Source: Leptolyngbyaceae cyanobacterium C42_A2020_001 (GTDB lineage Bacteria > Cyanobacteriota > Cyanobacteriia > Leptolyngbyales > Leptolyngbyaceae). From it: a DNA stretch of 52,990 bases. Positions within the stretch are counted from its first letter, which is position 1; each line of letters begins with the position of its first letter. The position numbers were made by a program, and so were the translations under genes. The DNA lies in NCBI GenBank assembly GCA_015272515.1, contig JACYLN010000014.1, forward strand, positions 1 through 52,990, written 5' to 3'. This document shows, one piece after another, positions 32,190 to 33,643 of this stretch. The notes below the pieces were generated by a model that saw only the letters and a list, made by a program, of their open reading frames with translations, ran no database searches and was not told where the DNA came from.

Positions 32190-33092
32190 CTAGCCTTCCC
32201 GGATGCCCATGGCCATCTGCAAGATGAAGGGAATTCCGCCAACCTGGTGATATTTGTCTGCCCAGGCACGAATAATTTCATCCAATTCTTGCATGGCAGC
32301 ATCAATGCGATCCGGGGGAATGTCCAATTCTTCCAGCACTCGCATAGCTTTGGGATGGCGATTTGCCCAATCATTCATCAAACGAAAATAGCGGGCAGTA
32401 TCTTCTACCATGATGTAGGTGCGTTCTTCCTCTGCCGCTGGAGAGTAGGAGGCACGGGTCAACGCATAAAAGGGCATCCCCCAGGGAGAATCAATCCGGG
32501 TAACAGTGCCAGAGTAGAGCAGGCGACGCTTGATGTGTTCTGCCAGTGCCTCGCTGATAGGCATTCGGCGTTCTGGAGGTAAGTCTTCTTGCGATCGCCC
32601 ATGCAAAAACTCAATCAACTCTAAAAACTGGAATGAGTTGATGAATTGGGCATCCGGTAATGTATCAATTGCCAACTTTTGTTCAATTTGCCGCTTTTCT
32701 TCAGAGGTGAGGCTAGAGGTTGCAATCCGCGATCGCCCCGGCTGCCAGGGAAACTGCTCCATCCACACGTAGGGAAACTGAATCAGATACCGCGGCTCTT
32801 GAGAACCCAGCATCTTCAACAGTTTTCCTTCGGTCAGAGCTTCCTTCACTTCTTCCACGATCGCCTTTACCCGCTTCGGCTCAATGTGGTGAAGATGCCC
32901 GGTCATGCGAAGGTTCTGGTCTTGCTCTAAGTAAGTCATGTAAATCGCGCACTTCGCAGCCGTTGCCGCCGCATCCAAAAATGCGCCATGCCGATGCCCA
33001 CTGGTTCGCATTGCACTAAATGCCAAATAGAGCATGATCTGATCCATCGCGCTAGGACCGAGGCGTTTGATCAGATCGAGATCATTGGTCAT
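32190..33092 (-). CDS. hetR: Heterocyst differentiation master regulator HetR
   Basis: A 300-residue protein that can be recognised at once from its start ([26 protein letters not shown] cut by one family-variant residue) and its near-complete agreement with Anabaena HetR across all three parts: the N-terminal DNA-binding domain ([19 protein letters not shown]), the flap (about 100-215, with [13 protein letters not shown]) and the C-terminal hood (about 220-300, [20 protein letters not shown] and [17 protein letters not shown]). The hood binds the RGSGR peptide. HetR is a dimeric activator controlling heterocyst formation and pattern in Anabaena, but it also exists in filamentous species without heterocysts, where its role is unclear. 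It is downstream of patX on the same strand. Confidence 0.98.
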
Positions 33093-33421
33093 TGTGAAGT
33101 GAGTACCTCATCAGAACAAATGCAAGCGAGTAGCTTACTAATTACCATTGTGTTTAATGATAAATGAACTGCCCTGGCGGTAGATAACCAATAGTGCATC
33201 AACCACAGAAAACACCCTGACCGCGAGTTGACTGAACTATCTATCCGCAGCAGTACGCTACTAACTACTGTATTATTCCCCAACTTTGGCTGTTTCCTGC
33301 GAAAATCTTTCACAAAGATTGCCTAACTTTCTCAGCCATTTTCAGCAAGCCAATGTTGTTCAGTAGGAATCTGCTCTCAAACGTGCTTCTAAGTTCAGAA
33401 TGCACTTCTGGCAATGCTGGT
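33093..33421. promoter_or_regulatory. hetR upstream region with near-repeated 16-mers
   Basis: 329 bp between the patX stop and the hetR start. Two related 16-mers, GTAGCTTACTAATTAC (33130-33145) and GTACGCTACTAACTAC (33253-33268), agree at 12 of 16 positions; both read GTA-N10-TAC, close to but not the GTA-N8-TAC site of NtcA. A perfect inverted repeat AATCTTT-CAC-AAAGATT is at 33304-33320. These are candidates for regulator binding, unproven. A weak GAGG lies 13 bases before the hetR ATG. Confidence 0.45.
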
Positions 33422-33643
33422 TTAGATTAGCCAGGTTTCTACACAACTTACTAATTCACGCCGTCCGCTGCCGCGATGTCTGGGCTGGGAACGTTTGACA
33501 ACATGGAGGGGAGCAACTTGAGAAGTTGGAGCAAATTGCAAAATCGAGAGGTTAGAGGAAGGCGATTGGGCGGTTACGGAAGGAACCATCACCGAAAATG
33601 TTAGCAGTACGCCAGCAAGTAGAGTAGAGGTGAGAAGGTGCAT
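33422..33643 (-). CDS. patX: PatX-like RGSGR-pentapeptide precursor
   Basis: A 73-residue protein from the ATG at 33643 (or 78 from a TTG at 33658). Its N terminus is a signal peptide (LLTSTLLAGVLLTFSVMVPSVTA), followed by a short polar region and, near the C terminus, HRGSGR (the RGSGR codons are at 33461-33475). RGSGR is the pentapeptide of PatS and HetN that binds the HetR hood and blocks DNA binding. The combination of signal peptide, about 75-residue length, HRGSGR and position upstream of hetR on the same strand matches the PatX family of filamentous cyanobacteria. The product is probably exported and cut to a cell-to-cell inhibitory peptide; processing is inferred. The start codon remains uncertain. 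Confidence 0.88.
   Translation of the reverse strand: MHLLTSTLLAGVLLTFSVMVPSVTAQSPSSNLSILQFAPTSQVAPLHVVKRSQPRHRGSGRRELVSCVETWLI

Follow-up and report, generated by a model that had tools for sequence, protein, structure and literature searches.

A patX-hetR pair in a Leptolyngbyaceae cyanobacterium without detected nifD and a conserved dyad at the predicted patX start site

The window analysed here is a stretch of 52,990 nucleotides from the Leptolyngbyaceae cyanobacterium C42_A2020_001, the minus strand of which carries, in this order, an ndhH-type gene (NADH dehydrogenase 49 kDa; 34082..35272), patX (33422..33643), hetR (32190..33092), and a gene for an M48 peptidase with TPR stretches (29365..32022); the two outer genes are the upstream and downstream neighbours and serve as context. 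The patX frame starts with ATG and codes for a 73-aa product that is hydrophobic at the N terminus and carries HRGSGR near the C terminus, while hetR codes for 300 aa with S48/flap and hood domains. The gap between them (33093..33421, 329 nt) contains neither GGGN5CCC nor TCCGGA. The initial annotation had placed a secreted RGSGR precursor directly upstream of hetR at 32190-33643, and this span is correct: an intact hetR follows the 73-aa frame after 329 nt, in the same orientation. A TTG at 33658 is given as an alternative start of patX in the list of open reading frames. According to the alignment, a 17-nt block in the gap (TGGGGAATAATACAGTA) is common to the window and one other locus (L010), and it is possibly an internal hetR promoter. 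Twelve proteins of the window were scanned with Pfam. About 4 kb from hetR, at 26058-28265 on the plus strand, a pentapeptide-repeat protein with a helix-hairpin-helix stretch is encoded; HetL is a pentapeptide-repeat protein too.

The HetR of the window scores 571.9 bits against the NCBIfam equivalog NF009718 (cut-off 489), contains the Pfam domains Peptidase_S48 (PF03574) and HetR_C hood (PF18460), and aligns over residues 1-299 to the solved HetR 4hri (E 1.5e-168). Twelve positions taken from the available text of PMC4649674 were compared through the 4hri alignment, in which the numbering is shifted by one after residue 144. All six hood residues that affect the peptide (PatS6) are present (Anabaena equivalents R223, E253, E254, D256, D270, and D278), as are all six residues of the DNA interface (R62, H69, E71, K73, R74, and K76). 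Since the hood contacts are intact, this HetR very likely binds the peptide.

The C-terminal part of PatX reads ...RSQPRHRGSGRRELVSCVETWLI / ...HRGSGRRELVSCVETWLI, and its putative signal peptide, judged by eye together with the hydrophobic N terminus, is MHLLTSTLLAGVLLTFSVMVPSVTA followed by Q. In 91 collected PatX frames, some of them duplicates, the motif is preceded by H (HRG(S/T)GR) in 74 of 92 cases, and the middle part of the protein is variable. Against the NCBIfam model NF047413 (heterocyst_PatX) the window protein reaches 23.8 bits (E 5.7e-5), and a search of its own genome with this model gave no PatX match. Because the score lies under the curated cut-off of 30 bits, the gene is, as far as its sequence tells, a patX in the wide sense of the literature and outside the model. 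The comparison with known PatX proteins that had been proposed as a check came out in favour of the gene for the motif position and against it for the model score. In the literature's sense the identity of the pair as patX and hetR is upheld, with HetR over its equivalog cut-off and HRGSGR at a conserved position (28 of 80 loci, the best 80 of 374; 91 frames).

The precursors themselves are varied. A PatX of the window's own family (L222 in genome G212) contains eight tandem Y/HRGSGR repeats, which gives it a prohormone-like appearance, and its gene lies behind a weak match to the patX-type promoter, with hetR 1273 nt further on. Three RGSGR-type copies are found in the PatX at L218, two in that at L141, and one HRGSDR plus one HRGSGR in that at L208. 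Two PatX-like frames carry other motifs, namely repeated ERASGR at L213 (hetR 835 nt downstream) and DRGEGR at L219 (no hetR within the fetched stretch). Frames of just 26-44 aa that end exactly in RGSGR (L145, L146, L147, L155, L025, L026, L035, and L044) have no obvious signal peptide by eye and resemble PatS; they stand behind TCCTGAT promoters. L205 (G157) has two patX genes at a distance of about 800 nt from each other; both lie upstream of hetR, and each is preceded by a promoter dyad of its own. This variety is worth following up, alongside the start-site dyad described below.

For the genomic context, a scan of genome contigs with HetR gave 374 relatives, and the best 80 of them were kept as loci. 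At least 28 of these 80 loci have, on the hetR strand and no more than 2.5 kb upstream of that gene, an RG[ST]GR frame shorter than 200 aa; the count is a lower bound, as some contigs end before 2.5 kb. Many of the 28 are Leptolyngbyaceae-like, and no Nostocales genus name was recognised among them. The adjacency of the other tested flanking genes of the window is common to only one of the best 80 loci (L010), with a hydrolase-type neighbour match of 26% at L058. The pair of patX and hetR therefore stays together as its surroundings change. With its neighbourhood common to one of the best 80 of 374 loci, the adjoining M48 peptidase was rejected as a candidate PatX protease. The Nostocales-type loci analysed show no RG[ST]GR frame within 2.5 kb upstream of hetR; there, the PatX-model search finds patX elsewhere in the genome. 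This search covered 32 genomes, 25 of them Nostocales-type genomes with a match, and the model matched 28 in all, the genomes with no match being that of the window, G017, G034, and G035. Two loci with HetR 86% and 82% identical to that of the window (L011 and L027) lack an RG[ST]GR frame upstream of hetR, and the PatX model matches nothing in their genomes. The Laspinema/Oscillatoria genomes (loci L085, L088, and L089) have two PatX-model matches each (L129-L133), which were not found upstream of hetR; L129-L131 are without TCCTGAT but keep the AATAGAA...ACGGA part.

Upstream of the window patX, TCCTGAT (33695..33701, minus strand) forms a -35/DIF1-like element with one mismatch to TCCGGA. 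TCCTGAT is found upstream of the ATG in 27 of the 29 patX regions (the 28 loci and the window), in most of them at a distance of about 55-70 nt, and is followed in most regions by TCYGTAWCAGG and then ARYAGAA; the exceptions are L017, which reads TCCTGAA, and L081, which has nothing comparable. The motif information is 16.3 and 18.8 bits, whereas shuffled sequences do not exceed 9.0 and 10.1. Elhai & Khudyakov in 2018 reportedly found DIF1 upstream of all patX genes, and their definition of PatX is said to include a DIF1 motif no more than about 69 nt upstream; in the window, TCCTGAT begins 58 nt upstream of the ATG. Nostocales-type patX leaders show TCCGGA and then AGTA..AGT at the same spacing. 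At five hetR loci, TCCGGA is followed by GTAGG...ATTAGAA, and the start mapped for the DIF1 promoter of Anabaena hetR, at -271/-272 (PMC7377430), adjoins this TTAGAA. The DIF1-type promoter is HetZ-dependent in Anabaena according to the available text of PMC7377430, and the comparison draws also on parts of PMC6133370. By its sequence the patX promoter (TCCTGAT, GTATCAG, and TAGA) looks DIF1-type, and homology to the DIF1 promoter of Anabaena hetR places the predicted start of patX transcription at about 33663-33667.

Other candidate signals did not hold up. No HetR site of the form GGGN5CCC was present within 700 nt upstream of the window patX or in the patX-hetR gap, and as a shared feature this site was rejected because it occurs near patX in 3 of 29 loci (L012, L025, and L077) without a pattern. 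A TCCGGA at 34057-34062, about 400 nt upstream of patX, is probably due to chance, since TCCGGA occurs within 700 nt in four of the 29 regions including the window and at differing distances. The motif upstream of hetR itself is weak (11.3 and 13.3 bits versus 9.3 and 10.4 shuffled). The strict promoter pattern has two matches in the genome of the window, one at patX and one inside another gene, and the control has one match as well; a broad DNA pattern for RGSGR coding was uninformative in this genome, with fewer matches than its control.

The predicted start site lies within a dyad: in the set of patX leaders from outside the Nostocales, the -10 arm and the nucleotides immediately preceding the ATG are complementary. 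On the minus strand of the window, the 5' arm TCCGTATCAGA (33670..33680) holds the predicted extended -10 (GTATCAG), the loop GAGTAGACGC (33660..33669) holds the predicted transcription start, and the 3' arm TTTGATACAGA (33649..33659) ends 5 nt before the patX ATG; the arms pair as TCCGTATCAGAG/CTTTGATACAGA with one C-A mismatch. For the statistics, 61 sequences (54 distinct) were assembled, of which 44 were kept after removal of six near-duplicates and of L025, L066, L081, and L163 (truncated start or missing element). Standard pairs fill 76.8% of the pair cells in these 44 sequences versus 21.9-37.1% when the arms are slid against each other. The covariation score of 0.207 (shuffled mean 0.148) is reached by none of 500 shuffles, which ignore relatedness, and the number of pairs changed on both sides (6 versus 4.3 shuffled, reached by 51 of 500) is less telling. 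Own arms pair at -13.0 kcal/mol versus -10.1 kcal/mol for arms swapped between species (44 sequences, p about 2e-4), and the difference persists among 26 representatives of less than 65% identity (-12.1 versus -9.1, p 5e-5). The inner stem is co-adapted by itself (p 6e-4), as are the extensions outside the dyad core (p 2e-4), and Watson-Crick pairs alone number 312 versus 295 (p 6.5e-4). On the antisense strand own and swapped arms give -13.5 versus -11.0, so that the pairing energy does not resolve the strand. Among single leaders, L044 carries one additional base in each arm, and L204 has GTA changed to GAA with TTC opposite, a case found by the model and hence leaning to pairing. Weak leaders occur as well (e.g., the Stenomitos-like L015, L017, and L018), and together with the C-A pair in the window they count against a perfect constraint. 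The mean folding z over the 44 leaders is -2.6, with 26 of 44 below -2, whereas 27 mostly Nostocales-type leaders (one locus twice, and a differing shuffle method) give -0.24; in Nostocales-type leaders the dyad is weak or absent. RNAalifold predicted no pairs on the 44-row alignment, and Rfam covariance models gave no match at the dyad up to E 5 and two chance-level matches elsewhere. By the titles and abstract openings among the matches listed in a partly loose search, the start-site dyad is provisionally undescribed in the PatX literature.

The plain promoter pattern matches in 53 of 388 genomes of the class versus three for the reversed control. Forty of the matching loci, a part of all rows, were examined, and 32 lead into patX; of the eight without patX, inspection by eye reveals no 3' arm in seven, whereas L165 contains a comparable ACACGGA stretch. 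A covariance model built from 28 hand-picked sequences of the 44 (covariation 0.193 versus 0.152) finds matches in 73 of the 388 genomes at E 0.01 and in 51 of these at 1e-6. None of the matches lies in the 23 genomes of family f32, which is taken for a family of heterocyst formers because its nifD is often split. In 21 matches examined on 20 further stretches, 17 lead into RG[STA]GR frames, two into PatX-like frames with RASGR or RGEGR, and two into neither. Applied to 96 sources, the model gives 60.5 bits for the window and E 0.001 or better for 23 of the 28 patX-hetR loci; it is weak at L017, L025, and L069 and missing at L081 and L082, and it reaches E 0.3-0.6 at the Nostocales-type patX leaders L110 and L114 and at the Laspinema/Oscillatoria leaders L129 and L131. 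Among the 51 genomes matched at 1e-6, a nifD/nifE-type match at 1e-80 is present in 22 (20 over the nifD cut-off and two nifE-type only) and none in 29, some of which are incomplete drafts.

As a tentative proposal, on balance more doubtful than credible, patX outside the Nostocales may be controlled by this previously undescribed dyad, which would serve a dimer as operator or else act as a translation switch, with the Nostocales going without it. In the predicted layout one arm would be the DIF1-type -10, the loop the transcription start, and the other arm would reach the start codon. The dyad might act as a DNA operator bound by a dimeric regulator. Alternatively, transcripts that start upstream would form a hairpin occluding the start codon region, so that longer transcripts fold and stay silent and only those from this promoter could be translated. 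There is no RNA-specific excess of G-U pairs (48 versus 48.8 shuffled; A-C 43 versus 45.3), and because of this, the nearly equal co-adaptation of the antisense strand, and the blank RNAalifold result, the RNA option is not established. The analogy with the mapped Anabaena start would leave the 5' arm untranscribed, which would speak against an RNA hairpin, while the lineage-specific co-adapted extensions favour pairing in general. Insulation of patX from read-through was considered and rejected, as the dyad is not stronger with a co-directional upstream gene (28 co-directional versus 15 divergent leaders with crude ORF calling, one of 44 lacking a callable neighbour; p 0.25 for energy and 0.70 for z).

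The host genome comprises 5.55 Mb in 149 contigs, is 99.98% complete, and contains one HetR match. No nifD match was found in it at 1e-80, the best being a chlN-like match of 49 bits. Because nifD was not detected in so complete a genome, nitrogen-fixing heterocysts are very unlikely in the host filament, which bears out the idea in the initial annotation of a filament that does not make heterocysts. The other two sampled genomes of the same genus (G177 and G357) both have nifD above the cut-off, and the module is therefore kept with or without nifD. The suggested genome check for heterocyst genes gave a divided answer, in that nifD was not detected and a HetP-family gene is present outside the window (C69:4040-4216, 110.3 bits, cut-off 45). 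By eye, the latter gene (L101) lies amid small repeated frames and a gene like that of a secretion-system membrane fusion protein. A PatD-family gene also occurs outside the window; its presence says little because the family matches the unicellular Synechococcus elongatus too.

The best explanation of these results, to which we assign a probability of about 0.6, is the ancestral patX-hetR module of the filamentous cyanobacteria. PatX would be exported and cut outside the cytoplasm to HRGSGR; neighbouring cells would then take up this hexapeptide, and its binding to the HetR hood would make HetR leave the DNA. The patX gene would be transcribed from the DIF1-type promoter, with its start site inside the conserved dyad, and hetR would be expressed as part of the patX transcript, from a separate start within the gap, or in both ways. 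Export, cleavage, uptake, inhibition of HetR, and a HetZ-type promoter are transferred here by analogy from work on Anabaena. In Nostoc, PatX6 (HRGTGR) binds HetR with a Kd of 88 nM and blocks HetR-DNA binding, and both export and the peptidase PatP are required (PMC12756182, available text). Support for the module comes from this binding and from observations on the window and its relatives: the genes with the HetR score, the motif, the intact binding residues, the linkage, the promoter sequence with its spacing and dyad, and the nifD comparison, with no nifD detected in the host. Against it stand the PatX score below the cut-off, the missing HetR site, the HetR independence described for Leptolyngbya BL0902, and the finding that loss of patX alone gives no heterocyst phenotype in N-starved Anabaena (PMC7761841, available text). 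The earlier interpretation is upheld in part: the pair, the motif, and the hood contacts bear it out, but its complete inhibitor/activator circuit is not supported in that form, given the lack of GGGN5CCC near patX, the DIF1-type promoter, and the BL0902 results. As for the output, the module may space some other kind of cell, for instance necridia, or sites of fragmentation, which is a conjecture after Khudyakov et al.; nonrandom fragmentation through necridia has been conjectured as an original role (PMC7761841, available text).

That the small frame is untranslated and its RGSGR match accidental is barely conceivable. Its score under the NF047413 cut-off and the variable middle part would fit such an accident, but position, size range, motif, and promoter recur in 28 of the best 80 of 374 loci (L081 without the promoter), and the examined promoter-model matches lead into RG[STA]GR frames in 17 of 21 cases and into PatX-like frames in two more. 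The pair could also be a relic that is expressed without a patterned output, for which the undetected nifD might be quoted; we regard this as improbable, given that both reading frames are intact, that the promoter and dyad are conserved, and that the promoter-dyad occurs both with and without nifD (22 versus 29 of 51 genomes). More weight, short of making it likely, is due to the possibility that in non-heterocystous filaments PatX is a secreted signal acting mainly via another receptor, HetR being its neighbour and not its main target. We know of no other PatX receptor, and both the linkage kept through changing neighbourhoods and the intact hood contacts for the peptide argue for HetR as the target. 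The contrary evidence comes from the non-heterocystous Leptolyngbya BL0902, in which patX and hetR were deleted and PatX turned out not to be simply a HetR inhibitor: in the groups of genes with opposite effects the double mutant resembles the patX mutant, unlike the hetR mutant, for two gene groups the patX and patX-hetR deletions are reported to alter transcripts alike, and the authors regard the action of PatX as basically independent of HetR (PMC11298460, available text).

The genes patX and hetR are reported to be present in almost all filamentous cyanobacteria, and their role where no heterocysts are formed has been described as a mystery (PMC11298460, available text), so that the question of the module's non-heterocyst output, raised in the initial annotation, is already in print. 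It bears on the origin of bacterial multicellularity and on Turing-type patterning. With a single hetR, an adjoining patX, and no detected nifD versus two nifD-positive genomes of the same genus, the present genome offers a clean comparison of the module in the presence and absence of nitrogen fixation, and the conserved dyad is a specific, mutable site at which to ask how the inhibitor is switched on.

In the lysozyme-type leader of phage T4, the late promoter lies within a hairpin by which long transcripts are kept from being translated; the patX dyad is like it in having the promoter in one arm, the start in the loop, and the other arm by the start codon, which is an analogy only. PatS is likewise an RGSGR inhibitor of HetR but is a 17-aa product and lacks conservation even among heterocyst formers (PMC12756182, available text). 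The exported PatX precursor of Anabaena/Nostoc PCC 7120, like the putatively exported one of the window, has the (H)RG(S/T)GR hexapeptide and a DIF1 promoter (PMC12756182 and PMC7761841, available text), whereas Nostocales-type patX differs in having TCCGGA instead of TCCTGAT, no start-site dyad, and no position upstream of hetR within 2.5 kb. The closest known pair is GFS31_32390-32400 of BL0902, likewise from a non-heterocystous filament, which has three hetR-like ORFs versus one in the window genome; the available text of that account makes no mention of a start-site dyad (PMC11298460). The pairing of patX and hetR described here is thus already of a known kind and its biology is mostly known, and the conserved start-site dyad is the part that is added.
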